Source: Chelativorans sp. J32 (lineage in GTDB: Bacteria; Pseudomonadota; Alphaproteobacteria; Rhizobiales; Rhizobiaceae). From it: DNA of 64,000 nt. Positions 6,349 to 25,021 of this stretch are shown here, piece after piece. A model generated the notes under the pieces. It was not told where the DNA came from, did no database searches, and saw only the letters and a program-made list of their open reading frames with translations. Position numbers and translations under genes: made by a program. The stretch spans positions 186,001-250,000 of the forward strand of contig NZ_JAEQ01000002.1 in the NCBI RefSeq assembly GCF_000518985.1, in the 5' to 3' direction. How positions within the stretch are numbered: the stretch's first letter is position 1; the number at the start of each line of letters is the position of its first letter.

Positions 6349-6375
6349 GCCACAGGAAGCTTAGTTTCCTGTGGC
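6349..6375 (-). terminator. Perfect 10-bp stem-loop spanning a stop codon
   Basis: GCCACAGGAA and TTCCTGTGGC flank a 7-nt loop that contains the stop codon of the minus-strand pentapeptide gene. No U-tract follows. It may end transcription from either side of this convergent pair or protect the 3' end. Confidence 0.5.
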
Positions 6376-7185
6376 TGGGCCTATGAGCGCGTTTTCGATC
6401 CGCACGCAAGCGAACACGGCATCGTCCTGCCGCATGCCGCGAAGATCGGCGTTGACCATGCGGGCATCGGTGAAATTCGCGGACATGAAATCGGCATTGA
6501 AGGCATTGACGAGGCTGAGATCCGCCGAGGTGAAATTCGCCTCGATGAAGCCCCCATTCGTCAGCACCGCGCTTCGCATATCCGTCCGCTGGAGGTTGGC
6601 CCCTTGCAGATTGGCGAGTTGCAGATCGGCTTTGCGCATGTCCGCACCGGTGAAATTCGCCTGCATCGCCATGGCGTGGACAAGTTTGGCTTCCTGCAAC
6701 TGCGCCTGTGTCAGCCGCGCGTGTTGCAGGCGCGCCCAGGTGAGATCCGCGCGCGTGAGCACGGCGCGGCTCAGATCCGACCTGTAGAGCAATGCCTGAT
6801 TGAGGTTCGCTTCGATCAGTGATGCGTTCTTCAGATCTGTCAGGTTGAGATTGGCGCCTGCGAGGTTCGCCGCATCGAGCTTTGCGCCGGTGAGCGATGC
6901 GCGGTGCAGCGAGGCACCGGACAAATCCGCGCCGCGAAGATCTGCGCCCGCGAGATCGCGCCGTTGCAACTGTGCCCCTTTCAGACTGCAGCCGGGACAA
7001 TCCTTCGTTCCTCCTGCGAGGAACGCCTGCGCATCACCAACCGGGAGCGGCTCCGACCGATCAATCGAGGGGAGGGGGGCGAAGGGTTGCGAGATGACCG
7101 GATGACATATCCGGCCGCCGCTCTGGGCAAAGGCCGGAAAACAAAGGCTGGTCAAAGCAAAAACGGTGAGGATCAGACGGGCCAA
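6361..7185 (-). CDS. Secreted pentapeptide-repeat protein
   Basis: 274 residues with a signal peptide (MARLILTVFALTSLCFPAFA). From about residue 65 nearly the whole protein is A(D/N)Lxx-type pentapeptide repeats (for example LAGADLRGADLSGASLHRAS, ANFTGADMRKADLQLANLQG), which fold as a right-handed quadrilateral beta-helix. Two cysteines precede the helix (KDCPGC). Family knowledge: known roles include DNA-gyrase mimicry and host or surface binding, but the signal peptide rules out a gyrase-protection role here. Function unknown; it is convergent with the quinoprotein operon. Confidence 0.85.
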   Translation of the reverse strand: MARLILTVFALTSLCFPAFAQSGGRICHPVISQPFAPLPSIDRSEPLPVGDAQAFLAGGTKDCPGCSLKGAQLQRRDLAGADLRGADLSGASLHRASLTGAKLDAANLAGANLNLTDLKNASLIEANLNQALLYRSDLSRAVLTRADLTWARLQHARLTQAQLQEAKLVHAMAMQANFTGADMRKADLQLANLQGANLQRTDMRSAVLTNGGFIEANFTSADLSLVNAFNADFMSANFTDARMVNADLRGMRQDDAVFACVRIENALIGPATGN

Positions 7186-8948: not shown

Positions 8949-10154
8949 CTAGAGAACACCTTGTTCTCCAGACATCAGTTCCGCCAATGCGCGGCCAGTT
9001 ACGGGGCCCAGCGTGAAACCTTGATGGCCGTGCCCAAAATTCAGCCAGAGGTTCTTGTGCCGTGGCGCTTGACCGACGACAGGCAGCATGGCGGGCATGC
9101 AAGGTCTCGTGCCTAGCCAGGGCTGATCTTCTACCGGCTCGCCAAGAGAAATGAGCTCACGTGCTGCCCGTTCGGCGCGTTCAAGCTGCCACGGTGTTGA
9201 GGGGGCATTCGGCGCGGAGAGTTCAGCGCCGGTGGTGATGCGCAAACCGCGAGCCATGGGCGCCATCACATATCCATTGGCTGCGTCCAGCAGCGGTATG
9301 TGCAAGGTAGGCTGGCATCGATAGTGGCGGTGATAGCCGCGCTTACGAACCATAGGATAGTTATAGCCGAAACGGCGCAGCAGTTCAGGCGACCAAGGGC
9401 CCAGGGCGACAACGGTGTGCTCCGCCTCGAGCACTCCGCCTTGCGTGTCCACTTGCCAGCTGCCGGATGCCTTCTGGCGCAGCGAGAGTGCTTCTCCAAT
9501 GCTTATCGTGCCTCCCGCATCGGTGAAGGATTTGGCATACGCCTTGGTCAGTGCGCCGGGATCGCTGACCGACCACGCGTTCAGCCAATGGATTGCTCCT
9601 ACGCCCGCCTGTTTCAGGGCTGGCTCGGCCGCGGCAAGCTCCGACGCGGATAGGAACTTGAAGGCGACACCGTATTCGGCGCGCACCCGCTCCGCATCGG
9701 CAAGCGCTGCTGCCATCGCCTCCTCATCGCGCTCCATGACCCGGAAGCCCTCGCGCCGCACGAGGTGATCGGCCGAAGCGCGTTCTATCAGCGCTTGGTG
9801 CTCCCGCGTGGCCGCCGCCGCCATCTGCGAATATGCAGCTGAAATCCGGCGGTGGCGCTTCGGCGCAGAATGCCACCAGTAGCGGAAGAGCGGAGCAAAA
9901 TGTCCCGGCAGGGAGCGCAGGTCATAGCGGACATCGTTGGAAGCGCCGCGCGCTATCGCCCAGAGCTGGCGGAGCTTTCTCGGCATGCCGTAGGGTTCGA
10001 CAGCCTCGCCTTGAATGAGACCGGCGTTGCCGTAGCTCGTTTCCATTCCCACGCCGGTGCGATCGACCAGTGCCACTGACCAACCGCACGTTTGCAAGTG
10101 CAGCGCGGTGGAGACGCCAACCATTCCTGCGCCGAGAACGATCGCCTGTGTCAT
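8949..10154 (-). CDS. FAD-dependent D-amino-acid dehydrogenase (DadA-like)
   Basis: 401 residues of the DAO/DadA flavoprotein family. The N-terminal dinucleotide site is IVLGAGMVGVSTALHL, followed by GNAGLIQGEAVEPYG as in DadA enzymes that oxidise D-amino acids to 2-oxo acids. The C-terminal FAD-contacting segment is NLWLNFGHGHQGFTLGPVTG. GGGAGA lies upstream of the ATG. It is divergent from the LysR gene and shares its promoter region. The adjacent D-aminopeptidase and peptide importer suggest that it oxidises D-amino acids released from imported peptides. Distinguishing it from other amine oxidoreductases of the family needs assay. Confidence 0.85.
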   Translation of the reverse strand: MTQAIVLGAGMVGVSTALHLQTCGWSVALVDRTGVGMETSYGNAGLIQGEAVEPYGMPRKLRQLWAIARGASNDVRYDLRSLPGHFAPLFRYWWHSAPKRHRRISAAYSQMAAAATREHQALIERASADHLVRREGFRVMERDEEAMAAALADAERVRAEYGVAFKFLSASELAAAEPALKQAGVGAIHWLNAWSVSDPGALTKAYAKSFTDAGGTISIGEALSLRQKASGSWQVDTQGGVLEAEHTVVALGPWSPELLRRFGYNYPMVRKRGYHRHYRCQPTLHIPLLDAANGYVMAPMARGLRITTGAELSAPNAPSTPWQLERAERAARELISLGEPVEDQPWLGTRPCMPAMLPVVGQAPRHKNLWLNFGHGHQGFTLGPVTGRALAELMSGEQGVL

Positions 10155-10341
10155 GCGGGATCTCCCTTAAGCGCCCGGCCGATGGCCCTGAACGGCAGTT
10201 TGCTGGCTCACATCTGCGCTCATGCGTAAGTTCCTCGCGACCCTGGCTCCATTCCCCTCATCGCCAATGTGCAGCAGCGGCGACATGCTGACATGGCATC
10301 TCCTGCGGCGGACTATGAGTACCGGCCGGTTGCTGTGCAAC

Positions 10342-10377
10342 TTCCTTTTATTTTGGTATCTATTCCGCAAAACTATA
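10342..10377 (+). promoter_or_regulatory. Putative LysR operator, copy A of a 36-bp element
   Basis: Lies between dadA and the LysR gene, ending 19 nt before the LysR ATG. Aligned without gaps to the element at 22409-22444 it is identical at 27 of 36 positions. Shared blocks include TTCCTTT, ATTCCG, AAA and TATA. Inference: binding site of the LysR protein encoded next to it. Confidence 0.55.
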
Positions 10378-10396
10378 GGTTGGGGAACCTCAGGCC

Positions 10397-11350
10397 ATGC
10401 AGCTGCGCCACATCGAAGTCTGTCACGCAGTTTTTCAGACCGGCGCGATCAGCCGGGCTGCACAGTTGCTTGGGATCAGCCAGCCTGCGGCGAGCAAGCT
10501 TGTAAAGCACGCGGAACAACGGCTTGGTTTTCCCCTCTTCGAACGCATCAGAGGCCGTCTTGTACCAACGCGGGAAGGGAAGTTGCTGGCGGCTGAAATT
10601 GACAAGCTGTTCTGTCAACTCACCCAGGTGCAAAGGCTCAGTCAAAACCTTTTGGCGCGCGAGCAGGAGCATCTTCGCATCGGATGCCTTCCCTGTTTTG
10701 GCTTCGGCCTGGTGCCTCAGGCAATCCAGCAGTTCCAATCCCGGCACCCGAGCCTCACTTACAAGGTGCATACGCAGCACGGCAGACGGCTGGTCGAAGC
10801 CCTGTTGTCCCAGGAAATCGATGTAGGCATTGCGCTCGACCCGATCCCGACGGCAGGCATTCATATGGAGACGCTTGGAACCGCCGAACTCGTCTGTGTT
10901 CAAAGCAAGCAGGCAAAGCCACAGAATGGCGAGATGCAGTTGACCGATCTCGACCTGCAGCGCTTGATAGGGCTCGAGGAAGGCGATCCACTTGGACGGA
11001 AGCTGGATGTCCGGCTACGGCAGTTGGGGCTCGCGGCCGCCCCGGCCATTCGTGTGCAGACCTATTACATCGCATGTGCCCTTGCGGAGAAGGATTGCGG
11101 GACAGCCGTGATCGACGCTTTCACGGCGCAGGCTTTTTCCAACAGCGGCATCACGATATCGCGGATAACGCCGGCCATACAGTTCGAAGTCGTCGCTCTC
11201 TACAACGAGCTTGTGCCGCAGTCTCGCATCTGCGCCGAGTTCATTTCGCGCGTGGGCGCGATCGTCAGGCAGCGGGGAAGCATCGAAGCGAAATCCAAAT
11301 CTGAACTCACGTCCCGGCTTTCGCAGGCAGAGCACTCTCGGTCAGCTTGA
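10397..11350 (+). CDS. LysR-family transcriptional regulator of the D-peptide cluster
   Basis: 317 residues. The N-terminal winged helix-turn-helix is typical (residues 1-60: IEVCHAVFQTGAISRAAQLL then SQPAASKLVKHAEQRLGFPL), followed by the periplasmic-binding-like effector domain from about residue 90. It is divergent from the DadA-like gene. Its 3' end overlaps the convergent M20 hydrolase gene by 44 bp, so the last residues (HSRSA) are encoded opposite the hydrolase C-terminus. The position between two catabolic genes and the shared 36-bp element imply control of the whole 8.9-22.3 kb cluster. The inducer is unknown; a D-amino acid or dipeptide is plausible. Confidence 0.9.
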   Translation: MQLRHIEVCHAVFQTGAISRAAQLLGISQPAASKLVKHAEQRLGFPLFERIRGRLVPTREGKLLAAEIDKLFCQLTQVQRLSQNLLAREQEHLRIGCLPCFGFGLVPQAIQQFQSRHPSLTYKVHTQHGRRLVEALLSQEIDVGIALDPIPTAGIHMETLGTAELVCVQSKQAKPQNGEMQLTDLDLQRLIGLEEGDPLGRKLDVRLRQLGLAAAPAIRVQTYYIACALAEKDCGTAVIDAFTAQAFSNSGITISRITPAIQFEVVALYNELVPQSRICAEFISRVGAIVRQRGSIEAKSKSELTSRLSQAEHSRSA

Positions 11351-12482
11351 TCCAGTAGCTCACACCATAGGGGATCGCTTCATCGTTGAAATCATAAGCG
11401 GGGTGGTGCAGATACTCGGAGTCGCCGTTGCCCATGAATATGAACGCACCGGGCCTGGCTTCCAGCATATAGGAGAAATCCTCCCCGCCCATGGCCGGCG
11501 GTAAGCTCCTGTCAACCTGCTCTTCGCCAGCGATATCCGCAGCGACGTTGCCGGCAAACTCCGTCTCATCGGGATGATTGAAGGTGACCGGGTAATTCGT
11601 GTTGTAAGCGAGATCCACCGTCACGCCGAAAAGGGCGGCGATTCCGTTGCATATGGTGCGGATACGCTCCTCTGCGCTCTTGGAGACCTCCCTTTTCAAG
11701 GTGCGCACGGTCCCCGTGATCTCGGCTTGGGCGGGGATCACATTGTAGGCTTCGCCCGCATGGAACGTGGTTACCGACACGACCAGGGATTCAAGAGGAT
11801 TGGTGTGGCGCGCGACGATATTCTGGAGAGCAATGACAAGCTGGCTGCCGGCGACGATCGGGTCGATCGTGTGATGCGGTAGCGCAGCATGCCCGCCGCG
11901 GCCTTTCACGGTGATGGTGAACTCGGCCGTAGCGGCCAGGATTGGGCCAGGGCGGATGCCGAAATGTCCGATCGGCATGCTCGGCCGGTTATGCATGCCG
12001 AAGACCTTCTCTATGGCAAAACGCTCCATCATGCCGTCATTGACCATCTCCTTACCCCCGCCGCCACCTTCTTCCGCCGGCTGGAAAATGACCGCAAGCC
12101 TACCGGCGAAATTGCGTGACTCTGCCAGGTATTTGGCTGCACCCAGGAGCATGGCGGTGTGGCCGTCGTGGCCACAGGCATGCATCGTGCCCGGAACAGT
12201 CGAAGCATAGGGCTTGCCGGTGGTCTCATGGATTGGAAGGGCATCCATGTCGGCACGCAGGCCGATTGTTGGGCCATCGCCCCGGCGACCGCGGATGATG
12301 CCGACGACACCGGTTCGGCCGATGCCGGTCACGATCTCGTCGCAGCCGAATTCCTTCAGCTTTTCGACGACGAAGGCAGCGGTGCGGTGAACGTCGAAAC
12401 CAAGCTCCGGTATCTGGTGCAGGTGACGGCGCCAACCGGCAATCTCGTCTTGCATTTCGGCTACGCGATTCAGGATAGGCAT
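11307..12482 (-). CDS. M20-family amidohydrolase (hippurate / N-acyl-amino-acid hydrolase type)
   Basis: 391 residues. Metal-site motifs of the M20D group are present: MHACGHDGHTAML, QPAEEGGGGGKEM, GMHNRPSMPIGHF and the late PPAMGGEDFSYML. The dimerisation domain lies between about residues 180 and 290. Family members cleave N-acyl or N-carbamoyl amino acids, aminobenzoyl-glutamate or indole-acetyl-amino acids. Just downstream of the D-aminopeptidase in the same direction (30-nt gap), it probably deacylates or cleaves a product of peptide breakdown. Exact substrate unknown. Confidence 0.88.
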   Translation of the reverse strand: MPILNRVAEMQDEIAGWRRHLHQIPELGFDVHRTAAFVVEKLKEFGCDEIVTGIGRTGVVGIIRGRRGDGPTIGLRADMDALPIHETTGKPYASTVPGTMHACGHDGHTAMLLGAAKYLAESRNFAGRLAVIFQPAEEGGGGGKEMVNDGMMERFAIEKVFGMHNRPSMPIGHFGIRPGPILAATAEFTITVKGRGGHAALPHHTIDPIVAGSQLVIALQNIVARHTNPLESLVVSVTTFHAGEAYNVIPAQAEITGTVRTLKREVSKSAEERIRTICNGIAALFGVTVDLAYNTNYPVTFNHPDETEFAGNVAADIAGEEQVDRSLPPAMGGEDFSYMLEARPGAFIFMGNGDSEYLHHPAYDFNDEAIPYGVSYWIKLTESALPAKAGT

Positions 12483-12512
12483 GAGCGTCTCTTCTTCGGC
12501 GTTGTCAGGCTT

Positions 12513-14075
12513 TCAATCGACTTTCCGGTAGGGGATGTTTCTTGCCAGCCAGCACCCCACGGTCAGCCCGCAGATCTGTCCGGCATCGTTCCGGTTTACT
12601 TGGATGGTCCATCTTCCCGGAGCGGGTGCATCCATGGACCGCTGGCAGGGCAAGACGAATACGTCCTTTCCCGCGGGATAGATCGCGTGCATGGGGCCGC
12701 GGCCATGCAGGCCTTCGAAGCAGCCGAAGAGGCAGGTTCCTGCCATATCGATATGCAGAAAGGCTGCGAGCTCGGGTGAGAAATATCGTCCTGGCAGGTC
12801 TTGAACGCTGTCGCCCGTCACCCGGTTCGCAGTTGCGACCAGATTCTCCCTTGGGCGTTCGAGCCTGACGGTATCGCCAGCACGCGCAAGCGTCATCGAG
12901 GGGGAAACGAGCGTGCCGCCGGGACCGGGAAAGAGGCGTTCGGGCGACGTGGCATAGCGGGCCTCCATGCCTTCTCCACTAATATGGATCTCGAGCAGCA
13001 GGCCGTTGGATTGGTCGAGATAACTGCCGTTCCAATCCGGATCCACCGGATAAGCTTGGCTCGGCTTTTCTTCAATACCGAGGCCCGCCCGCAGCAGCGT
13101 CAGCGCGGCTTCGTTTGCGCTTGCTTCATGATTGAAGAAAACCACAACCGACAATCTCCTCGATGCGACGTGAAAGCGCTGCAGGCGAAAGCCGCGCAGC
13201 CCCCCGGCATGCCCTGTCGTGGCGGCATCGCCGACGTGGCCGTGGACGAGGCCGTAACCATAGGGCGCCGGTTTTCCATCCGAGAATGTCTGTTTTTCGG
13301 AGAGGCGGCGATAAAGACCATCAGGGTCGTCCCGGGTCGCATCGATATAGATCTCCCAGGCGAGCATGTCGTCCAGCGATGCCGAGATGCCCGCGTCCCC
13401 CTCCCAATAGATGCGGTTCGTGGCGGGGAAGAACCCGACGCGGTCGTTTCCCTCATAGCCCAGTACGCCGTCCAGCGGCGTGCTGGTGTCGGCGGTCAGG
13501 AGAGCGGTGTGCATGCCGGCCCGGTCGAAAATTCGCTGAACATAGAGTTCTGCGAGAGAACGGCCGGCATACTCCTCCAGCAGATCCGCCAGAATCCGGA
13601 AGTTCCCGTTCGAATAGGAATAGCTCTTGCCCGGTTCGAAGTGGGTCGTGCGCGCGCTGGCGAGCAGGGGCTTTGCTGCCTCGCGCGGGAATACGCCCTC
13701 CGGGTGCGCGCCATGCAGCACCGTCAGCGCCCAATAATCGCGCAGGCCCGACTGCATATTGCAGAGATCCACCACCCCGGGCGGATGGCCTTCCAGGTGC
13801 GGCAGATAATCAGCAAGGCGCGCGTCGAGCAGGTGGGGATCGCCGATCAGATCCAGCAGAACCGCACAAGTGAACTGCTTGGTGATGGAGCAGATCGGCA
13901 TCCGCGTCGCCGTCGTCATGGCTAGGCCGGTCGCCAGGTTTGCGTATCCCCACGCTTGCCGCGCGACGATCTTGCCGCACTCCACGACGCCGACTGCACC
14001 GCCTGGCCCTTTGAACTGCTGGGGCAGGCAGAGGATTGCCCGCTCCAGGGCGGAAATGTCGATTGCTCCTGTCAC
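12513..14075 (-). CDS. dap: D-aminopeptidase (serine, S12 / beta-lactamase fold)
   Basis: 520 residues closely resembling the Ochrobactrum anthropi D-aminopeptidase known from memory: RMPICSITKQFTCAVLLD contains the nucleophile Ser-x-x-Lys, SYSNGNFRILADLLE the Tyr-Ser-Asn element, and TGHAGGLRGFRLQRFH the His-x-Gly element. C-terminal eight-stranded barrel domains are present (FPGPGGTLVSPS, RSMDAPAPGRW, SVGCWLARNI-like end). It removes N-terminal D-residues such as D-Ala from peptides. The GTG start at 14075 is chosen because TGAGGG lies 7 nt upstream and the N-terminus then aligns with the known enzyme; the frame is open to a GTG at 14111. It has no signal peptide, so it is cytoplasmic, acting after ABC import. 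Confidence 0.93.
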   Translation of the reverse strand: MTGAIDISALERAILCLPQQFKGPGGAVGVVECGKIVARQAWGYANLATGLAMTTATRMPICSITKQFTCAVLLDLIGDPHLLDARLADYLPHLEGHPPGVVDLCNMQSGLRDYWALTVLHGAHPEGVFPREAAKPLLASARTTHFEPGKSYSYSNGNFRILADLLEEYAGRSLAELYVQRIFDRAGMHTALLTADTSTPLDGVLGYEGNDRVGFFPATNRIYWEGDAGISASLDDMLAWEIYIDATRDDPDGLYRRLSEKQTFSDGKPAPYGYGLVHGHVGDAATTGHAGGLRGFRLQRFHVASRRLSVVVFFNHEASANEAALTLLRAGLGIEEKPSQAYPVDPDWNGSYLDQSNGLLLEIHISGEGMEARYATSPERLFPGPGGTLVSPSMTLARAGDTVRLERPRENLVATANRVTGDSVQDLPGRYFSPELAAFLHIDMAGTCLFGCFEGLHGRGPMHAIYPAGKDVFVLPCQRSMDAPAPGRWTIQVNRNDAGQICGLTVGCWLARNIPYRKVD

Positions 14076-14129
14076 CTCACATCCCTCAAAAGGCCGCGAC
14101 AAACGCGGCACCGATACTTGCCTGCACGC

Positions 14130-15104
14130 CTACGCCGCTGCCGGCACGAGCCGCACCCGGTGATCGTCACCTATGGAAACGAGCTGCGAAGCCGGAGGGT
14201 CGCTGTAGATATCGTGGGTGCCGAACTCCCTCGGATGGTAGTCGAAGCCGTGGGGCGGCCCTTGCGCTCCGGCCTCGTCGATCAGGCTGGGGGTGGTGAA
14301 CGCGGCAAAGGGATCTGGTATCGCCGCGATTAGGCGGCGCGTATAGGGATGTGCGGGATTGCCGAAGATTCGATCCCAGCGCCCTTCTTCGACGACCTGG
14401 CCAAAATACATCACAGCGACGCGGTTGCTCATATGTTCGACGACGCTGAGATCGTGGCTGATCATGATGTAGGAAAGCTCCAGCCTCTCCTTGAGGTCGA
14501 GCAGCAGATTGATGATCTGTGCGCGGATCGAAACGTCGAGGGCGGATACGGGCTCGTCCAGCACCACCACCTTGGGACTGAGTATCAAGGCGCGGGCGAT
14601 GCCGATACGCTGGCGCTGGCCGCCCGAGAATTCATGCGGAAAGCACTTGGCCTTGTCCGGGCTCAGTCCGACCAGGCGCATCATCTCCATAACGCGCCCC
14701 TCAACCTCGCCATTGTTGACGATGCCCTGCAACCGCAGAGGCGCTGCGAGCGAGGTAAGCACGGTCTGGCGCGGATTCAGCGACGCGTAGGGGTCCTGAA
14801 AGACAATTTGCGCCATACGCGCGCGCTCGATGCGCGAGGGCTGAGCTTTCCCGGTGATCGCGCGGCCTTCGAAATGGATGGATCCGGAAGTCGGCGTTTG
14901 CAGGCCGACGATGGAAAATGCCAGCGTGGACTTGCCGCATCCCGACTCGCCAACCACCGACAGGCATTCGCCCTTCTCGAGCGTCAGATCGACGTTGTTC
15001 AAAGCGCGCACCAGCCTGCGTGATCGTCCGAGGAGCCCGGTTCTCACGGGAAAGTGGACGCTGAGGTTTTCTACTCGCAGTAACGGCCCGGCCCGATTAT
15101 CCAT
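14130..15104 (-). CDS. Dipeptide/oligopeptide ABC transporter ATP-binding protein (DppF-like)
   Basis: 324 residues. Walker [10 protein letters not shown], signature FSGGQRQRIG, Walker B VVVLDEP and the switch His (MISHDLSVV) are all present. The frame is open to 15386, but that part is antisense to the neighbour's 3' end. ATG 15104 has CAGGTG 8 nt upstream and overlaps the stop of the preceding ATPase gene (ATG 15122 is an alternative). The C-terminal extension beyond HPYTRRLIAAIP is the usual oligopeptide-ATPase tail but lacks a clear FeS/CRFRxRC zone. It pairs with the upstream DppD-like subunit. Confidence 0.92.
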   Translation of the reverse strand: MDNRAGPLLRVENLSVHFPVRTGLLGRSRRLVRALNNVDLTLEKGECLSVVGESGCGKSTLAFSIVGLQTPTSGSIHFEGRAITGKAQPSRIERARMAQIVFQDPYASLNPRQTVLTSLAAPLRLQGIVNNGEVEGRVMEMMRLVGLSPDKAKCFPHEFSGGQRQRIGIARALILSPKVVVLDEPVSALDVSIRAQIINLLLDLKERLELSYIMISHDLSVVEHMSNRVAVMYFGQVVEEGRWDRIFGNPAHPYTRRLIAAIPDPFAAFTTPSLIDEAGAQGPPHGFDYHPREFGTHDIYSDPPASQLVSIGDDHRVRLVPAAA

Positions 15105-16080
15105 GGTGAAAGCACCTGACATAACCCTCATCTCCGAGATCGGCTTGGTCGGGTTGCGTGGTTGCACACAGCGCGCTCGCACGCTCGCAGCGCGGCTGGA
15201 ACCGGCAGCCGGCAGGGAAAGCGGAAATAGAGGGCACGACTCCAGTGATCTCCTGCAGGCGCTTGCGGCCATGAATGCCACGGGAACCGAGCCGCGGCAG
15301 CGAGTTGAGCAAGCCGTTGGTGTAAGGGTGAGAGGGCGAGCGGAATATGGCTTCCACGGGCCGCTGCTCGACCAGATGCCCGGCATACATGATCCCCACG
15401 TTCCTGCACATTTTGGCGATCACGCCGAGATCGTGGCTGATCATCAGCACGGCCGTGCCGCGTGCCGAGCAGAGCTCCTTCATCAGTTTGAGGATTTCCG
15501 CCTGGACGGTAACGTCTAGCGCCGTGGTCGGTTCGTCGGCGATCAACAGATCCGGCTTACAGGCCAAGGCGATGGCGATCATGATGCGCTGGCGCATACC
15601 GCCCGACATCTCATGTGGATAGCTTTTCACCCGCTGTTCCGGCGCTGGCACCTGCACGCTGGCGAGCGCTTCGACAGCCTTTCGTTCCGCTTCATGCCAG
15701 GTCGCCCCCTGATGAAGAACGAACATTTCCGCGATCTGGCGACCCACCGGAGATACCGGGTTGAGCGCCGTCATCGGCTCCTGGAAGATCATGGCGATGC
15801 GATTGCCCCTCAGCTTGCGAAGCTCCCGCTCCGGCAAGCCGCGCAATTCCCTGTCCCTGAAGCGGATCGAGCCGCTGCTGATGACGAGCGGGGATCGTAG
15901 CAAGCCGATCATCGCAAGTGCCGTGATACTCTTGCCGCAGCCGGACTCGCCGACGAGGCCGAAGGTCTCGCCGTGGTCGATGGTAAAGGAGACATTCTCG
16001 ACCACGTTGTGCCGGTGCTTCGCTGACACAATGTCGATCTGCAGGTCCTGCACCTCCAGAAGCGCGCGTGTCCCGCTCAT
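15097..16080 (-). CDS. Dipeptide/oligopeptide ABC transporter ATP-binding protein (DppD-like)
   Basis: 327 residues with Walker [10 protein letters not shown]-loop [11 protein letters not shown], signature [10 protein letters not shown] and Walker [13 protein letters not shown]. The C-terminal oligopeptide-transporter zone [15 protein letters not shown] is present with its cysteines. The start ATG overlaps the stop of the DppC-like permease (ATGA). It forms a heterodimer with the next gene to energise the importer. Confidence 0.93.
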
Positions 16081-16907
16081 ACCGGCCGTGTCCTCATATG
16101 CGGGTCCAACCAGTCACGCAGTCCGTCGCCGAAGAGATTGAGCCCGAGAACGGTCATGAAGATCGCAAGTCCGGGAAAGATCGCGACCCACGGCGCGATG
16201 GCGATCAGCTCGCGCGCATCTGTCAGCATGTTGCCCCAACTCGGCTGCGGTGGCTGGATGCCGAGCCCCAGGAAGGACAACGCGGCCTCGGCAAGGATCG
16301 CATCTCCCATCCCGAGTGTGGCGATGACCAGAACCGGGCCGACGATATTGGGCAGGATCTGCGTCAGCATGATGCGGAAATCGCTGTAGCCGAGCGTCTT
16401 GGCTGCCTGCACATAGCTTTGGCTCTTCAATGACAATGTCGAACTGCGGGCGATGCGGCAGGTCCATGACCAGTTGGTGAGGCCAAGCGCGATCAGCAGG
16501 CTGGATAGACCGGGGCCCAGGACAGCCATGATAGCGAGTGCGAAGATGAGCGACGGCACCGACAGCATCAGGTTCGTCAGGCCGTTGACCAGGTCATCCC
16601 ACCAGCCGCCGAAGTAGCCGGCCGATATGCCCAGGATGAGCCCGATGGTGGTATTGATGAGCTGCGATCCGATCCCCACAGTGAGCGAAACCCGCGCGCC
16701 ATAGAGAATGCGGGTGAATACGTCGCGGCCTTGCGCGTCCGTCCCGAACCAGAATTCTGCACTCGGTGGCAGTTCGGCATTCATCAAGTCCGCGTCCATC
16801 ACCGGGCTGAGAGGCGTCAGCCAGGGTGCCAACACTGCCGCTACGATGACGATGAGGCATAGCGTGCCGCCAAGCACAAGGTTGAGTCTTAGTCCCATGG
16901 CATTCAC
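16077..16907 (-). CDS. Peptide ABC transporter permease (DppC-like)
   Basis: 276 residues from the GTG at 16907, or 273 from ATG 16898. The N-terminal membrane helix is followed by a periplasmic segment (FWFGTDAQGRDVFTRILYGA, the DppC signature) and then five more helices. The EAA-type coupling loop is YVQAAKTLGYSDFRIM. The start overlaps the stop of the DppB-like gene. Forms the inner-membrane channel with that subunit. Confidence 0.93.
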   Translation of the reverse strand: MNAMGLRLNLVLGGTLCLIVIVAAVLAPWLTPLSPVMDADLMNAELPPSAEFWFGTDAQGRDVFTRILYGARVSLTVGIGSQLINTTIGLILGISAGYFGGWWDDLVNGLTNLMLSVPSLIFALAIMAVLGPGLSSLLIALGLTNWSWTCRIARSSTLSLKSQSYVQAAKTLGYSDFRIMLTQILPNIVGPVLVIATLGMGDAILAEAALSFLGLGIQPPQPSWGNMLTDARELIAIAPWVAIFPGLAIFMTVLGLNLFGDGLRDWLDPHMRTRPV

Positions 16908-17839
16908 CCGTGGCTGATGCGGGGGTCGATGACCGCATAGAGGACGTCGACAACTGTGTTGATGACGAGAAAGCAGAGCACAAGCACCAGTATACTGCCT
17001 TGCACCACCGGTATATCGCGCAAGCCTACGCTATCGATCAGCAGGGAACCCAGGCCCGGCCAAGAAAATAGTTTCTCGACAACGACCGCCTGTCCCATCA
17101 TTGAGCCGAATTGCAGCCCTAGCGTGGTGATTATCAGCACCAACGCGTTGCGCGTCACGTGCCATTTCACCAGCCGGAAACTGCTCATGCCCTTGGATCG
17201 CGCGGTACGAATGAAGTCCGTGCTCATGACCTCCAGGACCGCAGCGCGTGTGGTGCGCGCCAGCAGCGCCATTGGCCCCACGCCGAGCGTCAGGGCGGGC
17301 AGAACGAGATTGCGCAGACCTCCCTCGCCATATCCGAAGCTCGGCAGCCAGCCGAGCGTCAGCGCAAAGAGGTACATGGCGAGCAGGCCAAGCCAGAATT
17401 GCGGCACGGAGAGACCTGATACCGCGCCGACCATGGTGATGCTGTCGAGCAGGCTACCCGGCCTCATCGCCGCGAAGAAGCCAAGCGGCAGGCCGATCGC
17501 GATCGCCACGCACATGGCGGCAATCGCCAGCTTCAGGGTGGGCCAAATCCGCTCCCCGATCAACTCTGTTACCGGCTGACGTGTGCGAAAGGATGTGCCG
17601 AGATCGAACTGCGCAAGGTTCCAGATATAGTCGCCGAAGCGGACGTGGACCGGCCGGTCGAGACCGAATTCGCGGTTGAGCCTCTCGATCAGTTCGGGGT
17701 CATTGGCGCCGCGGCCATCCGCAATCATGCTGGAAGCGATGCTGCCGGGCACGACGCTGAAGATGATGAAAATCAGCAGCGATACCGCGATCACTGTCGG
17801 AACCATCTGCAGAAGGCGGCGTAAGATGAAACGGAGCAC
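16904..17839 (-). CDS. Peptide ABC transporter permease (DppB-like)
   Basis: 311 residues with the DppB-type start LRFILRRLLQMVPTVIAVS and six membrane helices. The cytoplasmic coupling loop is FIRTARSKGMSSFRLV. GTG start with AAGGAG about 10 nt upstream. It is separated from the binding-protein gene by 145 nt containing a strong hairpin, an arrangement typical when the binding protein must outnumber the permease. Confidence 0.92.
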   Translation of the reverse strand: MLRFILRRLLQMVPTVIAVSLLIFIIFSVVPGSIASSMIADGRGANDPELIERLNREFGLDRPVHVRFGDYIWNLAQFDLGTSFRTRQPVTELIGERIWPTLKLAIAAMCVAIAIGLPLGFFAAMRPGSLLDSITMVGAVSGLSVPQFWLGLLAMYLFALTLGWLPSFGYGEGGLRNLVLPALTLGVGPMALLARTTRAAVLEVMSTDFIRTARSKGMSSFRLVKWHVTRNALVLIITTLGLQFGSMMGQAVVVEKLFSWPGLGSLLIDSVGLRDIPVVQGSILVLVLCFLVINTVVDVLYAVIDPRISHG

Positions 17840-17939
17840 CGAGCCCGTTCTCCTTCCATTTTTGCAGTGAATCTCTGCATGGGAGGTTTGCGATAACCTG
17901 CAATCCCTCTACAGGACAGCCACGCCGAGACCCGGAGGA

Positions 17940-17972
17940 CAACCGGCGCCGGCAGATTGCCCGCGCCGGTTG
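17940..17972 (-). terminator. Intercistronic hairpin after the peptide-binding protein gene
   Basis: A perfect 10-bp stem (CAACCGGCGC / GCGCCGGTTG) with a 13-nt loop, just past the binding-protein stop on the minus strand. No long U-run follows, so it probably attenuates readthrough or stabilises the upstream mRNA. Confidence 0.6.
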
Positions 17973-17984
17973 CTTCGGCTTCGA

Positions 17985-19583
17985 TCAACGAGACGGTGCG
18001 CTCTCGTCGAACCAGATTTTCTCGTAAGATTGGAGCGCGATTTCCATAGAGTTGGGCTGTGCCCCGTGCAGCCAGGGCTGATATGCGATCACCGCCTTGT
18101 TGTAGTTGAAGAACCACATCGGCGCCTCCTCCTGGAGGAGGTTGTTGGCCTGGCGCAGGAGTTCGTTCTTTTCGTCTTCGTTCCTGGCCTGTTTGGCGGC
18201 ATCGATCAGCTTGTCGTAATCGGGATTGTTGAACTTCTCATAATTGCCGCTCGATTGAGGCGTCTCCGAATGGAAGTTGAGCAGCGCCGTGAGCGGATCC
18301 GGCCCGCTCGTATATGACCACATGAAAGCCTGAAAATCGCCAGCGGGAACGACTTCCGACAGCACCGAGCTTTCCACGGGCTTGGCCTTCACCGTGATGC
18401 CGACCTTCGCCAGCATCGGGATGATAGCTTCCACGATGGTCAGGCCCCAGCTCTCGTTCTGGGTTGCGGTGAGCTCGAACTCAAAGCCCTCCGCATAGCC
18501 TGCTTCCTTCAGAAGCTCCTTGGCCTTCTCGGGATCGTACGGATAGGGTTTGGCATCCTTGTCATAGGCCGGTGAAGAGATCGGCAGCCAGCTTGTTGCG
18601 CGATAAGCCTTGTCCTTAGCCAGTCGCTTGATGATCAGATCGCTATCGATCGCATAATTGATTGCCTGGCGGACACGCTTGTCCTTGAACGGCTCATAAT
18701 CGAGGTTGAAGCCGACAAAACGGGTGAAGACCTCCGGCACCTCCAGAATGTACTTCGACATTTCCGGGTCCGCCTTGTAGGCCACATATTGCGCCGGGCC
18801 CAGAACAGAAACATCGATCTCCTTGTTGCGGAAGGCCACGTCGCGTGCCGAGGCATCCCCCATGATCATAATATTTACTTTGTCGAGATAAGGCTTGCCG
18901 GAGTCGAAGTACTTCTCCCATCTTTCCACGGTAAGGCGTGAGCCGGGGACATATTCGGCAAATTTGTAAGGCCCGACGCCGATCGGATGCTTGAGGAACT
19001 CCTCGCTGTTACCCTCGTCCTTCGGATAGATCGAGGTAACGTTTCGCATCAGCAAATAGGCCGGATCCATCGGGTCCGTGAATGTAATTTCCAGCGTGAA
19101 ATCGTCTATTTTCTTCAGGCCGGAAATCGCTTCCGCCTTGCCTTCGCTATATTCCGCGGCTCCCTTGATGTAGCGGATAAACCGCGCCGACGGATAAGCC
19201 TTCTGCGGATCCATGATCCGCGTATAGGTCCAGATGATGTCGTCCGCCGTCATCTGCTTGCCGTTGTGGAAATACACGTCCTGGCGCAACTTGTAAGTAT
19301 AGACCAGTCCGTCGTCCGACGCCGCGACATCGGTCGCGAGGGCCAGCACAGGCTGGTTCGCGTCGGCGTCCCAGTCATAAAGCGGTTTGTGGATGGCCTT
19401 GGACCAAATTGCGTCCTGGATTTGCGCCGAGGCATGGATGTCTAGTGACGAGAAGCTTGACCCGTACGGTGCAACATAGTTGAGCGTGCCACCTTGCCGC
19501 GGCTCGTCCGCCCGGGCGGATGATGCACCTGCCGCAAGCAGAAACGCGGCAAGCGCCAGAGCAAATGCTGATCTTCCAGCCAT
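17985..19583 (-). CDS. Periplasmic peptide-binding protein, SBP family 5 (DppA-like)
   Basis: 532 residues. ATG 19583 is preferred over 19595 because GGAG sits 6 nt upstream of it. The signal peptide is MAGRSAFALALAAFLLAAGA (mature start near ADEPRQGG). Family-5 landmarks: YTYKLRQDVYFHNGKQMTAD, FEPF-type KDKRVRQAINYAIDSDLI and KAKELLKEAGY. It captures short peptides for the adjacent permease. Given the neighbouring D-aminopeptidase, the ligand may be a D-residue-containing peptide or a peptidoglycan-derived peptide. Confidence 0.92.
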   Translation of the reverse strand: MAGRSAFALALAAFLLAAGASSARADEPRQGGTLNYVAPYGSSFSSLDIHASAQIQDAIWSKAIHKPLYDWDADANQPVLALATDVAASDDGLVYTYKLRQDVYFHNGKQMTADDIIWTYTRIMDPQKAYPSARFIRYIKGAAEYSEGKAEAISGLKKIDDFTLEITFTDPMDPAYLLMRNVTSIYPKDEGNSEEFLKHPIGVGPYKFAEYVPGSRLTVERWEKYFDSGKPYLDKVNIMIMGDASARDVAFRNKEIDVSVLGPAQYVAYKADPEMSKYILEVPEVFTRFVGFNLDYEPFKDKRVRQAINYAIDSDLIIKRLAKDKAYRATSWLPISSPAYDKDAKPYPYDPEKAKELLKEAGYAEGFEFELTATQNESWGLTIVEAIIPMLAKVGITVKAKPVESSVLSEVVPAGDFQAFMWSYTSGPDPLTALLNFHSETPQSSGNYEKFNNPDYDKLIDAAKQARNEDEKNELLRQANNLLQEEAPMWFFNYNKAVIAYQPWLHGAQPNSMEIALQSYEKIWFDESAPSR

Positions 19584-19659
19584 AACCTTCTCCATTGTTG
19601 TCCGGCACCCGTTGTGTGGGTAACCTTCCCCTCTTTCTTGCCGATACGGCTGCTAGCCT

Positions 19660-21288
19660 CTACCGGACGAAGACCACCTCGCCGCCGCGCAGCGTGAGTA
19701 CGCATTGTGTATCGTGCAAGATCTCTTCTGGCGTCGCTTCCAACATGTTGCGCGAGAACACCGCGACGTCGGCGAAATGCCCTGGAACGAGCTTGCCTTT
19801 CACATCCTCGAGCTTCTGCGAGAACGCCCCGTATTCGGTATAGACCTGCAGCGCTTCCCCAATGGACACACGCTCCCGCGCATCCATAACCGTACCTTTC
19901 CCGGTCTTGCGCGTCAGCATCGTGTAGATGTTCGGGAACGGATTGGGGTGGCAGACCGGTGAATCGCTGCCTGTCGCCGGCTTGAAGCCCAAGTCTCGCC
20001 AGGTCTTGAGCGGATAGCTCGACAGGGCTCTGTCCTCGCCCAGAACCGAGATGTAACCGTCGCCGAAATCGTAGATGAATACCTGCTGCGGGCAGGGGTA
20101 GATGCCGGCCTTTCGCATGCGCTTGTGCTGCTCGTCATTGGAGAAGCCGCAATGTTCGATCCGATGCCTGCGGTCCGGGTCCGGCACGTTCGCAAGCGCC
20201 TTCTCATACGCGGTGATCAACTGCTCGATTGCGGCGTCGCCGATGGCGTGGCACGCCAGCTGGTAACCCTTGCCATGATAGTCGAGAACCAGCCCCTCAA
20301 GCTCCTCGTCTGAAAGGATTTGCGTGCCTTTATTGTCATCCTCGCCGAGATAAGGCTTTTTCATCCAGGCGGTGCGCCCGCCGGCCGAGCCGTCGAGAAA
20401 AATTTTCACGGCGCCTATCGTGAGCATCTCGTCGCCGATGCCCGAGATCAGGCCTGCCGCGTGGCATTGCTGGACGATGGAAACGCCTGGATCGCCAAGA
20501 AGGACCAGCCACGTGCGCACCGGGAGCCTACCGCTCGACCTTGCAAGGTTATAGGCCCTGATCTCGTCAAAGCCGCCTACCTGCCCTACGGCAGCATCCA
20601 TTACGCTGGTGATGCCATAGGAGAGAAGCAGATTTCCTGCTCTCTCGATCGCTTCTATGATCTCGGAGGTGGTCGGCTTCGGGATGATCGCTCGAATCAG
20701 CCGCTGCGCAGTCTCGGCCACCATGCCGGTCAGCTTTCCGTTGCGCTGCTCGATGATGCCGCCTTCCGGCACTCGTGTGGACTCGTCGATCTTTGCGAGT
20801 TCGAGAGCCTTCGAGTTGAAAACGGACACGTGTCCGCAGGCGCGCGTCAGCATGACTGGATGGTCGGGGGCGGCGGCGTCCAACTCGCTGCGGTGTGGGT
20901 GGCGGCCCACATCGAGCTTGTTCTGATCGTAGCCTCGCGCACGAATCCAAGCTCCAGGTGGCGTCACCGCCGCCTGCTTCCTGATGGCATCGAGCAGGCT
21001 GTCGAGGGTAGGCGCCTTTTGCGGTGTTGCGTCGATCCACGAAAGCGTAAGCCCGGTGGCCACAAGATGCAGATGCGCATCGTTGAGACCAGGGGTGGCA
21101 AACCTGCCGCTCAGATCGATCAGGCGTGTCTGGGCACCCTTGAGGTTGAGGATATCGTCGTTCGACCCGACCGCAAGCACCTTGCCTTGCCAGATCGCGA
21201 GCGCCTCTACCACTCCTTCCCCATGACCGCACCAGATCGTGCCGTTATGCAGAATGGTGTCCGCCTGAAGAAACTGCCCTCTCGCCAC
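19660..21288 (-). CDS. Amidohydrolase family 3 protein (YtcJ-like)
   Basis: 542 residues. GTG 21288 is favoured: GGGAGG lies 6 nt upstream. In-frame TTG 21309 and GTG 21294 are alternatives. The metallo-hydrolase hallmark NDAHLHLVATG is at the N-terminal third, with GSAGGRTAWMKKPY in the middle and LACHAIGDAAIEQ and HRIEHCGF later. The C-terminal SDSPVCHPNPFPNIYTMLTRKT is typical of this family. Such enzymes hydrolyse N-formyl, N-acyl or cyclic amides (including N-acyl-D-amino acids), but most are uncharacterised. Cytoplasmic. Its place between the transporter and a beta-lactamase-like hydrolase suggests a deacylase step on the imported compound. Confidence 0.88.
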   Translation of the reverse strand: MARGQFLQADTILHNGTIWCGHGEGVVEALAIWQGKVLAVGSNDDILNLKGAQTRLIDLSGRFATPGLNDAHLHLVATGLTLSWIDATPQKAPTLDSLLDAIRKQAAVTPPGAWIRARGYDQNKLDVGRHPHRSELDAAAPDHPVMLTRACGHVSVFNSKALELAKIDESTRVPEGGIIEQRNGKLTGMVAETAQRLIRAIIPKPTTSEIIEAIERAGNLLLSYGITSVMDAAVGQVGGFDEIRAYNLARSSGRLPVRTWLVLLGDPGVSIVQQCHAAGLISGIGDEMLTIGAVKIFLDGSAGGRTAWMKKPYLGEDDNKGTQILSDEELEGLVLDYHGKGYQLACHAIGDAAIEQLITAYEKALANVPDPDRRHRIEHCGFSNDEQHKRMRKAGIYPCPQQVFIYDFGDGYISVLGEDRALSSYPLKTWRDLGFKPATGSDSPVCHPNPFPNIYTMLTRKTGKGTVMDARERVSIGEALQVYTEYGAFSQKLEDVKGKLVPGHFADVAVFSRNMLEATPEEILHDTQCVLTLRGGEVVFVR

Positions 21289-21328
21289 TGTCACCCTCCC
21301 GTCAAACAAAGAGCCGTAGCCGGCCGCA

Positions 21329-22294
21329 TCATATCTGCATATCGGCCGCAGGCTGCGCGGCTCGGAACTGTTGCGTCAATGAGCAGACCTTTTCGGCGAT
21401 CGCAGGCAGTATTTCCGCGTTCTCCGAGACTTCCTTTCCTTCTGTGAAGACCGCCAGAATGAACGATTTTCCACTTGGCAGCTCCACATATGCGGCATCG
21501 TGGCGGCGGTAGCTGGCGTTTTCATCGCCAGTCCATAGTGTTCGGCCGCATTTCGACCATAGCCTCGCCCCGTCGGGCAGGCCGGCGCCAAAATAACCCT
21601 CGATCTGAGCCTGCGGATGGCACGCGAAGGCGGGGTCGGTAGGCCTTTCGAGCAAGTCGCGCATGTGCCGGCTCCGGGTGGGCGTAACGATGCTGCCGGT
21701 CAGAATGGCATAGAGAAGGCGTGTGGTGGCGTCGGTGGTCAGGCGGTTATGATTGTTGCCGCCCCACTGGACGAAGATGCTCTCGCGGCCGTACCGCTGG
21801 TCGTCCATGAGCTTTTGGCAGACATTCAGGTTCTCGAACTCGGCCCAGCCGAGCGACCGAAAATATCGGTTCACCCATAGGCGTTTGTCGATCCAATCCC
21901 GCATTTCGGCATCATCGAGCAGGGTGTCGCCGGTCGTGCCGGTGACAAGGTCAACGATATAGTTCGTACCTGTGTTGCTCGACCAAAGAATCATATCCCG
22001 CATGGCGCGCTCGAGCTCACCATGCATCTGTACGGTACCTTCCTCCAGTCGCGCTTCGGCGGCGGCCAGGTAGAACAACTTCACAACACTGCAGGGATAG
22101 AAGGACCTTCCGCCATTGTGCCCGTAACCTTGGACGTCCTGTCCGGCACAGGCTGGCGTGAGGCGAGCCGCAAACGGAAGCAGCGTAATGGCTAAATTTT
22201 CCTCTTTGAGACCGCATCCGCCAAACCGATCGAGCGCCCAAGCCACAAGCTCATCGCCCATTCTCTGTGTCTCAGGAGATCCTTGGTAAAACAT
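21329..22294 (-). CDS. Beta-lactamase-fold serine hydrolase (class A-like)
   Basis: 321 residues, no signal peptide. Active-site elements of the class A/transpeptidase fold are visible: Ser-Val-Val-Lys (SFYPCSVVKLFYL) for the SxxK, SSNTGTNYIVD for the SDN loop, and KCGRTLWTG in the KTG position. The nucleophile helix with HNGGRSFYPCS matches secreted beta-lactamases, yet this protein appears cytoplasmic. A Cys replaces Thr of KTG. It is the first gene of the leftward operon, with the 36-bp element about 115 nt upstream. Probably a peptidase or amidase acting on the imported substrate; a true beta-lactamase is possible but less likely without export. Confidence 0.82.
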   Translation of the reverse strand: MFYQGSPETQRMGDELVAWALDRFGGCGLKEENLAITLLPFAARLTPACAGQDVQGYGHNGGRSFYPCSVVKLFYLAAAEARLEEGTVQMHGELERAMRDMILWSSNTGTNYIVDLVTGTTGDTLLDDAEMRDWIDKRLWVNRYFRSLGWAEFENLNVCQKLMDDQRYGRESIFVQWGGNNHNRLTTDATTRLLYAILTGSIVTPTRSRHMRDLLERPTDPAFACHPQAQIEGYFGAGLPDGARLWSKCGRTLWTGDENASYRRHDAAYVELPSGKSFILAVFTEGKEVSENAEILPAIAEKVCSLTQQFRAAQPAADMQI

Positions 22295-22696
22295 CAGCCA
22301 TCCCTATTCCCCCGGCAAAACCTAAAGCCCGCTCTTGGAGACGTGACGAGCAGGAGTTCGCGGCTGCAGGCAGGGGGAAGTATGAATTTCACTCGCTAGC
22401 AGCACAATTTCCTTTCATTCCGGAATGCATTCCGGAAAGTTATATCTGGTGACCCCATCAAAGGCTGGGTGACAGGTTCGTATCTGCCAATACGATTGAT
22501 CGACTGGCACCGTTGGAGATGAAGGCGAGATCGAGAGCGCTCAAGCTCTGCGTCAGCGCCGCGAACTCCAAAAATTTTGCGGCCTCACATCGTGAGGCGC
22601 GCCCTCACGCCCTTTGGTCGATCGGTCAGGAAGACGGTGCAATTCGCCACTTCAGCTCTGGCCGACAACACAAAACCAAACAGAAAGGGCAATACC
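22295..22696. other. Divergent intergenic region with operator and promoters
   Basis: Separates the leftward D-peptide operon from the rightward repeat-protein gene. It contains the 36-bp element at 22409-22444. Nothing else recognisable was found; a frame open from 22577 into the next gene is probably untranslated leader. Confidence 0.5.
22409..22444 (+). promoter_or_regulatory. Putative LysR operator, copy B of a 36-bp element
   Basis: Contains two adjacent copies of the palindromic core ATTCCGGAA (at 22418 and 22429), with TTCCTTTC before and AGTTATA after. It aligns without gaps to 10342-10377 at 27 of 36 positions, and lies about 115 nt upstream of the first gene of the leftward operon. 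Inference: the LysR protein binds both ends of the cluster. Confidence 0.55.
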
Positions 22697-23218: not shown

Positions 23219-24585
23219 TCAGCCGCCGGATGCAAGCTGCCACTCGATGACCTGCTCCGGCTGATAGGAACAGAACGTGCCGGTGCGCAGGCTGTTGGTG
23301 AGGTGTTTCGCGAGCGGCTCGTGCACGGCTTCGATTTTGCGTAGGGCATGACGGATGCGCCAAGTGACGGTGGTGCGGGCGCGCTCGGCCAGGCTGCCGA
23401 TGCGCCGGCTGCGGCCACCAAGACCCAGGGCGCTCGCGAGCGTATCGATAAGCTGGTCCAGCTCGCCGCGCAGACGCGCCGCCTGGCCAAGATCATTCAT
23501 GTCCTGCGCTTCGGCCAGTTCTTCCTGCAGGTCACGGATGCGCCTCTTCAGCGCCGTTCGTGCCTTGTCGTCGAGCATGACATCGCCGCCATAGGAATCC
23601 TCTCCGCGCTCGGCCAAATCGAGGCAGTGGATTTCCTCGCCCGCCCGCTCGATGAGGCGCTGAATGTCCCTCAGGCCTTTCATGTCCGGCAGGCTGATCT
23701 GCCGCCGGGAGAAGGTTATCAGCCATATATTCCCCTGGCGAACGAAGCTCTGCTCATCTTGCCTTTGCGGTTTGGCGGCCGGCAGGCTGTCGCCGCGCGT
23801 GGCCGCGACAGCTCCGTCGAAAAGGCGGAAACCATCGGCCAGAAAATCGATGTCCTCCTGGCGGCGATAGGGAATGTTCTGAAGGAACCAGCGGCAGGCC
23901 TCGCCCGGCTCTGGCTCGCGGCCGCCGATGATGGACTGGCGGAAATTGCTTTGGAATAGCGCGAACTGTTGGCGCGCCTCCTCCATCTGTCCGAGCTTGG
24001 CGTAGACGATGGCGGTGTAGGCGGGCGCTTCGATCAGCTGCGCATGTTCCGACATCTGCGAGATCTTGCCCATCGTGAGAAGCGTTGCCTCGAAATCACG
24101 CGCCATGAGGTAAGCCAGCGCCAGGACGGCGTAGTATGAGTTGCGGTGATACGGATTGAGCCGCAATGCCTTCTGTGCGTACTCGACCGCGGATTCGGGA
24201 TGGCCCAGGAAAACCGCGTTGATCGCCTGCTGGATCAAAAGCTCGGCATCGTTCGGACAGAGCATCAGCGCCCGGTCGAGATACCACGCCGCACGTTCGA
24301 AATTGCGATCGAAGATCAGCAGACGGCCGAGAACGAGATGCGCCATGGCATCATTGTCGTCGAGATCGAGGGCCGTGTGGGCGTACCCGTAAGCGGTCTG
24401 CCAGCTTTCCTGGAAGCGGTCCCAGAACTGGTAACCCCACTCGTTGAACCAGGAAAGGGACAGGCCGACATAGGCGCGCGCATAGTGCGAATCGAGCTCG
24501 AGCGCTCGCTCGAAGAGCGCGCGCCCTTCCTCGTCCGTTTCCCTGGTTCCCTGACGCAGGAGGGCGAGCGCATAAAGGGCTTCTC
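23219..24585 (-). pseudogene. 5'-truncated TPR regulatory protein
   Basis: The C-terminal roughly 455 codons of a TPR protein. They begin near ALLRQGTRETDEEGRALFER, with successive TPRs (ALELDSHYARAYVGLSLSW, ALMLCPNDAELLIQQAINAV, ALRLNPYHRNSYYAVLALAY). They end in a conserved regulatory tail (ISLPDMKGLRDIQRLIERAG, ARTTVTWRIRHALRKIEAVH, LRTGTFCSYQP) seen in adenylate-cyclase/AAA-type regulators. The expected N-terminal cyclase, winged-helix or ATPase domain is missing: upstream of about 24580 the frame stays open to 25174 only by reading antisense through a sugar-binding-protein fragment. Probably non-functional, or a chimera if translated. Confidence 0.75.
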
Positions 24586-25009: not shown

Positions 25010-25021
25010 ACTGACCCAATC

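Follow-up and report, generated by a model that had tools for sequence, protein, structure and literature searches.

The coupling of a peptide importer to a D-peptidase is already a known logic. In Bacillus subtilis, dppABCDE together with ykfABCD places a D-aminopeptidase and a dipeptide importer in one operon, and in Escherichia coli the ddpXABCDF genes combine a D,D-dipeptide importer with a dipeptidase. To our knowledge, the bacterial use of D-amino-acid peptides from cell walls and secondary metabolites, a nutrient pool of soils, is poorly mapped. Here we describe a block of genes from Chelativorans sp. J32 (Rhizobiaceae), located in a 64,000-nucleotide stretch of contig NZ_JAEQ01000002.1 (positions 186,001 to 250,000; hereafter the window), that shares this logic and is set apart by its enzymes, by the predicted boxes of its LysR regulator and by a gene for a PF13354 class-A-like serine hydrolase (BLA2). 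Judged from its sequence, the block likely encodes an inducible system that uses short D-residue peptides as food through import, cytosolic hydrolysis and oxidation of the freed D-amino acids. The B. subtilis system differs from it in having an M55 rather than an S12 D-aminopeptidase, a regulator that is not LysR, and ykf genes that serve wall peptides, whereas the E. coli system relies on a VanX-like metallopeptidase as its one hydrolase and is nitrogen-controlled.

A further parallel comes from the archaeon Pyrococcus abyssi, where, in the part of the account available, the gene for Pab87 (CubicO, S12) is accompanied by those for a D-aminoacylase, a pyridoxal-phosphate aminotransferase and a dipeptide ATP-binding cassette (ABC) transporter, with a proposed role in processing D-residue debris (PMC2651629). 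Both neighborhoods join an S12 D-peptidase to a dipeptide transporter, but Pab87 belongs to another S12 subfamily, and a LysR box, a PF13354 hydrolase and an M20 enzyme find no mention in that part of the source (PMC2651629). The same text names Ochrobactrum anthropi as the source of the D-aminopeptidase DAP (PMC2651629). A Dpp label alone does not imply D-peptide transport, since the Pseudomonas aeruginosa binding proteins DppA1-5, in the available portion of their description, do not bind dipeptides with D-residues (PMC12728205). No description of the gene combination in the window was found in the open-licence PMC literature, and the full set was met in one genome only.

Two transcription units with a shared predicted operator

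The block, carried by a genome of 4.7 Mb in 45 contigs, is laid out as two transcription units, a nine-gene run on the minus strand and a divergent dadA-like/lysR pair. The run reads BLA2, AH3 (an Amidohydro_3 metal hydrolase, presumably YtcJ-like), dppA, dppB, dppC, dppD, dppF, DAP (an S12 D-aminopeptidase) and M20 (an amidohydrolase/aminoacylase), with gaps of 19 bp (BLA2-AH3), 64 bp (AH3-dppA), 145 bp (dppA-dppB), 18 bp (dppF-DAP) and 30 bp (DAP-M20), and with dppB, dppC, dppD and dppF overlapping one another; these genes would be transcribed together. The oppositely oriented lysR overlaps the 3' part of M20 by 44 bp, and 242 bp separate lysR from the dadA-like gene.

Each unit is preceded by a copy of one 40-base element. 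The two copies, boxes 1 and 2, agree at 30 of 40 bases, a level reached by none of 2000 first-order Markov pairs (mean 22.6, maximum 28). When the window was scanned with either copy, the other was the next best match; their 40-base consensus, with at most three mismatches, has two matches only in the 4.7-Mb genome (0 for the reversed control), and the looser pattern AAYTTCCTTT-N16-24-AAARYTAT again returns exactly these two sites. Box 1 ends 19 bp before the start of lysR and box 2 lies 110 bp before BLA2; both read on the plus strand and therefore have the same orientation toward their minus-strand targets.

Among plasmid records, the closest relative of this LysR (52.8%) comes from Rhizobium daejeonense, and Rhizobium sp. 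ACO-34A holds a near copy of it. The R. daejeonense gene is divergent from that of a flavoenzyme scoring above the cut-off for D-amino-acid dehydrogenase (478 vs 383 bits), and about 1 kb beyond the pair lie a BLA2 relative, an annotated prolyl aminopeptidase and a peptide ABC importer. The pattern CAAYTTCC-N-AAARYTAT is present in the lysR/dadA gap of both Rhizobium strains; across 233 loci (3.34 Mb, including overlaps and copies of the window) its sole occurrences are the two sites of the window and those in these two relatives. Because the box precedes both units, is absent elsewhere in the genome and recurs beside the closest LysR relatives, a single LysR likely controls both transcription units. 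The LysR relative of Cupriavidus metallidurans (46%) is followed by genes for a D-amino-acid dehydrogenase (485.7 vs 383 bits) and an Amidohydro_3 protein; that of Azospirillum thermophilum (38%) adjoins a gene annotated as D-amino acid dehydrogenase; and in genome G345, from another family of the order, a relative of 40% is divergent from a dppABCDF-BLA2 run whose BLA2 is 53% identical. At 1e-60, a LysR search of 297 genomes of the family returned the window's own protein alone. The nearest kin of the M20, dadA-like and lysR genes were sought in plasmid records, and those of lysR also in the 297 family genomes and 347 genomes of the order.

R. daejeonense also has a second cluster of D-peptide type (L034, 5258-15557), in which a LysR gene and lysA stand in line with five genes of a peptide-type ABC importer and with those of a YkuD L,D-transpeptidase and a D-aminopeptidase; its content hints at diaminopimelate peptides.

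Predicted activities of the encoded proteins

The genes named in the sequence-only reading (those for DAP, a DadA-like oxidase, an M20 enzyme, a family-3 amidohydrolase, a beta-lactamase-fold hydrolase, a Dpp importer and a LysR regulator) all proved to be open, to lie at the positions given and to match the families expected of them. DAP scores 717.3 bits against PRK13128 (NCBIfam; cut-off 443), carries a PF00144 beta-lactamase-like domain and PF07930 (DAP_B), both above cut-off, and finds as its best PDB match the D-aminopeptidase 1ei5 (E 5e-171, 515 residues). The SxxK serine, the YxN tyrosine and HxG have assigned roles in this family, and S59, K62, Y150, H285 and G287, which form these motifs, are invariant in 23 aligned sequences. 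By these matches DAP is assigned to the S12 D-aminopeptidase family, whose members act on N-terminal residues of D-Ala, D-Ser or Gly type. The protein of 1ei5, which we take to be that of Ochrobactrum (Brucella) anthropi, belongs to the same family end to end and is known as an enzyme; the DAPs of Brucella/Ochrobactrum records (among L072-L112) have neighborhoods other than the window's.

The importer has the full Dpp/Opp-type composition of a binding protein, two BPD permeases and two oligo_HPY ATPases. Pfam identifies the family-5 binding protein, the BPD permease DppB and the oligo_HPY ATPases DppD and DppF, and DppC is recognized by alignment with the DppC proteins of 30 related loci (76-88%). 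The reading frame listed for DppF is over-long at its 5' end, with a start probably near 15104. The M20 protein matches the TIGR01891 amidohydrolase subfamily at 369.7 bits (cut-off 153.75). Relatives of the oxidase at 46-50% adjoin a PF13354 hydrolase and a Dpp importer in loci L133-L135; among the contexts of three dadA-like relatives, two contain no D-peptide cluster. At the third (L213), an ABC importer, an M20 gene and an amidase stand alongside. By eye, DppA alone among the soluble proteins of the set has a signal peptide, and the enzymes look cytosolic.

These assignments suggest how such a system might operate. DppA would catch D-residue peptides in the periplasm and DppBCDF would carry them inward, where the S12 D-aminopeptidase would trim N-terminal D-Ala/D-Ser/Gly-type residues. 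Other linkages (D-amide or peptide bonds and N-acyl caps) may fall to the PF13354, Amidohydro_3 and M20 enzymes, and the DadA-like flavoenzyme would convert the freed D-amino acids to keto acids. LysR, whose signal is probably a D-amino acid or a product, would bind the box before itself and the dadA-like gene as well as the box before the nine-gene run.

A conserved importer core and its D-specific neighbors

DppA relatives passing a 1e-150 threshold occur in 33 of the 297 family genomes, the window's own counted. Thirty loci were fetched as stretches of 12.9-20 kb (DppA 55-78%), with the window, G086 and G158 left out, and at all 30 the genes AH3, dppA, B, C, D and F lie on one strand, AH3 at most 3 kb from dppA. 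For this core, the possibility that gene order is conserved nowhere is thus refuted; no second genome among those examined showed the entire combination, and conservation of the complete block was accordingly rejected.

By DppA identity the loci fall into two groups, 17 below and 13 above 63%. In the distant group (a 55-60% clade), an S58 peptidase, an M55 D-aminopeptidase or a D-amino-acid transaminase is present at 16 of 17 loci, and a LysR of another type likewise at 16 of 17. One locus just above the divide (L193, 64%) has a D-amino-acid transaminase alongside. Within 10 kb of a dppA place lie 13 of 27 M55 matches (about 0.1 expected) and 16 of 89 S58 matches (about 0.3 expected), in a count over 32 dppA places of the 33 genomes that assumed a mean genome of 5.3 Mb, treated related genomes as independent and omitted 5 of 94 S58 and 2 of 29 M55 matches as short or below cut-off.

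Among five Shinella dppA records, the core is joined by a DAP gene in four (L141, L150, L233 and, by coordinates, WSD5-1), L149 being without one. Three of these (L141, L150, L233) hold DAP, a D-amino-acid transaminase, S58, M55, LysR, AH3 and dppABCDF in one stretch, and S. meliloti LMB1 and 1021 have the same set minus DAP and M55. The cores of the Shinella/Sinorhizobium loci (L141, L147, L149, L150) are orthologous to the window's (AH3 65-66%, DppA 59%), but the LysR and the enzyme set, with S58, M55 and/or D-amino-acid transaminase, differ. M55 was found in Shinella and some Sinorhizobium/Ensifer relatives; the window's genome has no M55 match, and so departs from the Bacillus-type dpp operon, which includes M55.

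The PF13354 hydrolase family

BLA2 scores 68.7 bits against PF13354 (cut-off 22) and 37.1 bits against NF033103, the model for class A beta-lactamases, whose cut-off is 200. S69, K72, S105, N107, K248 and G250, which make up its SxxK, SxN and KxG motifs, are invariant in 16 sequences, and the SxxK-to-SxN spacing is much shorter than that of class A enzymes. With regard to the Glu166/Asn170 pair of the class A omega loop, the alignment shows a nearly invariant Glu152 (at least 90%), with an Asn five residues further in most rows. Searched against the PDB, the profile of the family gives weak beta-lactamase matches only (best E 7e-5). An IMG/VR scan with BLA2 returned no match, and anti-phage defence was rejected as a function on the absence of a PADLOC match for BLA2 and DAP.

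Twenty loci with BLA2 relatives (29-53% identity) were fetched, from all 9 other family genomes with a match, all 5 such other genomes of the order and 6 of 14 plasmid records (H31-H33 and H35-H39 omitted), L126 and L131 being near copies. A family-5-type binding protein lies at most 6.5 kb from the BLA2 relative in 17 of the 20, and both permeases do so too in 14; at L127, L130 and L136 the binding protein stands alone. The remaining loci fail this distance test (L132, L230, L231); at L132, DAP adjoins BLA2, and the Dpp set lies just past 6.5 kb or partly within another run. At 9 of the 20, a gene within 8 kb encodes a D-amino-acid transaminase, a DadA or DadA-like enzyme, M55 or DAP. At L137, L139 and L140, dppABCDF runs begin with a distant BLA2 relative (32-34%) and close with a YkuD-like open reading frame (31-34%).

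Probable assembly of the block from modules

The block looks to have been assembled from modules, whose nearest kin lie at differing distances: 78-88% for AH3 and dpp (L181), 69% for DAP, 69% for M20, 59% for the dadA-like gene, and 53% each for lysR and BLA2. A quick tree of 99 DAPs places the window's protein in a supported group of seven, together with those of Shinella granuli, Mesorhizobium escarrei and others, and a fully supported branch separates this group from the core-linked Shinella DAPs, which form a clade apart; therefore DAP and the core probably came together more than once. Of the named DAP loci, covered as the best 80 of 406, 20 are accompanied by DppB- and DppC-type permeases, and as the neighbors vary over these 80, DAP was rejected as the organizing gene. 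In the same tree, a DAP from a record titled Bacillus subtilis SK6B4 (L066, 2657-4201) sits inside the Pseudochrobactrum group, likely the result of a contaminated or mislabelled assembly.

Coordinates and surroundings

The features of the block are collected in Table 1. The dppA-dppB gap holds a 15-bp inverted repeat (17940-17972, 93% complementary), of a kind common after binding-protein genes. Promoter and terminator scans gave sites no commoner than in shuffles, and the profile of guanine plus cytosine shows no clear step across the block, hence no acquisition signal. By eye, the block may be adjoined by frame-broken genes on opposite strands (23219-25174 and 24146-25009), overlapping remains of a TPR-type protein and a sugar-binding protein end, and a pentapeptide-repeat-like protein is encoded downstream of the dadA-like gene (6361-7185, minus strand).

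Table 1. Genes and predicted regulatory boxes of the block, in window coordinates (FAD, flavin adenine dinucleotide).
Feature	Position	Strand	Support
DadA-like FAD amino-acid oxidase/dehydrogenase	8949..10154	-	Pfam DAO, 207.4 bits
Predicted LysR box 1, dadA-like/lysR gap	10338..10377	+	30/40 bases in common with box 2
LysR regulator, divergent from dadA-like gene	10397..11350	+	Pfam HTH_1, LysR_substrate
M20 amidohydrolase/aminoacylase	11307..12482	-	Pfam Peptidase_M20; TIGR01891
S12 D-aminopeptidase (DAP); homology starts near 14063	12513..14111	-	PRK13128
DppF-type ATPase	14130..15104 (start inferred from homology)	-	Family scans and alignment to core loci
DppD-type ATPase	15097..16080	-	Family scans and alignment to core loci
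DppC-type permease	16077..16907	-	Alignment with DppC of 30/30 core loci only
DppB-type permease	16904..17839	-	Pfam and alignment to core loci
DppA-type solute-binding protein	17985..19595	-	Pfam SBP_bac_5, 317.7 bits
Amidohydro_3 metal hydrolase (AH3)	19660..21309	-	Pfam, 392.4 bits
PF13354 class-A-like serine hydrolase (BLA2), first gene of run	21329..22294	-	Pfam PF13354, 68.7 bits
Predicted LysR box 2, upstream of nine-gene run	22405..22444	+	Match to box 1

Weighing the alternatives

Several results speak against a role in D-peptide use. None of the 12 loci of the nearest core clade (DppA 68-78%) has a D-specific neighbor, and L142, L143 and L146 show the core without such neighbors in the stretch covered. 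Of 17 DAP cases in the 33 genomes, one alone, the window itself, has a dppA gene within 10 kb, and relatives of AH3, BLA2 or M20 occur in 0 of the 80 named DAP loci (again the best 80 of 406). Relatives of DAP, BLA2, DppA and LysR are absent, at the thresholds used, from four genus mates examined. Counts across related genomes, moreover, are not independent, and formal probabilities are thereby too small. With respect to regulation, an element common to two promoters does not establish the identity of the protein that binds it; in R. daejeonense the box precedes lysR/dadA only, BLA2 there facing a second LysR gene, and neither the Cupriavidus nor the G345 locus of a LysR relative showed the box. 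The oxidase scores 150.7 bits against the NCBIfam D-amino-acid dehydrogenase model PRK00711, below its cut-off of 383, so that DadA-like is the right label, and in the PDB it matches glycine oxidases best. The earlier proposal of D-peptide uptake and degradation under one LysR nonetheless remains the best-supported account, in view of the shared box and of the recurrence of core, regulator and hydrolase family with D-specific genes; its word 'dedicated' goes beyond that support.

It is possible, if somewhat doubtful, that the true substrates are stem and cross-bridge peptides of the cell wall (D-Ala-D-Ala, D-Ala-Gly and similar) scavenged from peptidoglycan turnover, a special case of D-peptide use. 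The YkuD-like frames that close the dppABCDF runs of distant BLA2 relatives would suit such scavenging, as would the R. daejeonense line of lysA, Dpp, YkuD and D-aminopeptidase genes, but LD-carboxypeptidase, epimerase and muropeptide genes are absent among the families found in the block, and DAP-type enzymes need free N-terminal D-residues, which wall stems seldom offer. The authors of the Pab87 study, in the part of it available, likewise suggest bacterial wall debris as a source (PMC2651629).

An unlikely alternative to D-peptide use is a general nutrient cluster for peptides or N-acyl/amide compounds, in which DAP alone is D-specific and the substrates of AH3, M20 and BLA2 are N-acylated or N-formylated compounds. 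The M20 and Amidohydro_3 families do include amide hydrolases of many kinds, and of the 12 nearest core loci that lack D-specific neighbors, 4 have an M20 gene; however, LysR relatives adjoin D-amino-acid dehydrogenase genes in Rhizobium, Cupriavidus and Azospirillum, and the shared box would place the nine-gene run under that LysR. Quite improbable is a chance neighborhood, that is, an AH3-dpp operon with unrelated genes dropped in: the full set is confined to one genome, the context of DAP varies and its proximity to dppA is exceptional, but the nine genes share one strand with gaps of 18-145 bp or overlaps, the box precedes both units, and BLA2-Dpp runs with DadA-like or transaminase genes, and core-DAP linkage, each recur separately. 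Least probable is uptake with detoxification or use of beta-lactam-like compounds, which the sequence-only reading had offered as an option and for which nothing speaks beyond the PF13354 fold and its motifs; it was rejected as a leading idea because BLA2 falls far under the class A cut-off, lacks a signal peptide (by eye) and would therefore act after import, and has partners that look like peptide importers (17 of 20 loci with a peptide-type binding protein nearby), no penicillin-amidase-type family being among the block's Pfam matches.

Significance

If the block is a D-peptide system, as we think likely, it offers directly testable components: one regulator and its two predicted boxes, a putative importer and four putative hydrolases. 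The least known part of the system is the importer-linked, signal-less class-A-like hydrolase family. We tentatively propose, as a plausible though still uncertain extension, that the PF13354 proteins make up a so far undescribed family, whose members hydrolyse D-peptides or D-amides in the cytosol, are coupled to importers and, as relatives of class A beta-lactamases, serve nutrition. On this proposal, the family may combine around Dpp importers with interchangeable enzymes of the S12, M55 and S58 types, and with oxidases or transaminases of D-amino acids, into a modular D-peptide economy of the Rhizobiales. A signal-less beta-lactamase-fold family tied to peptide import bears on the roles of such folds beyond antibiotics.

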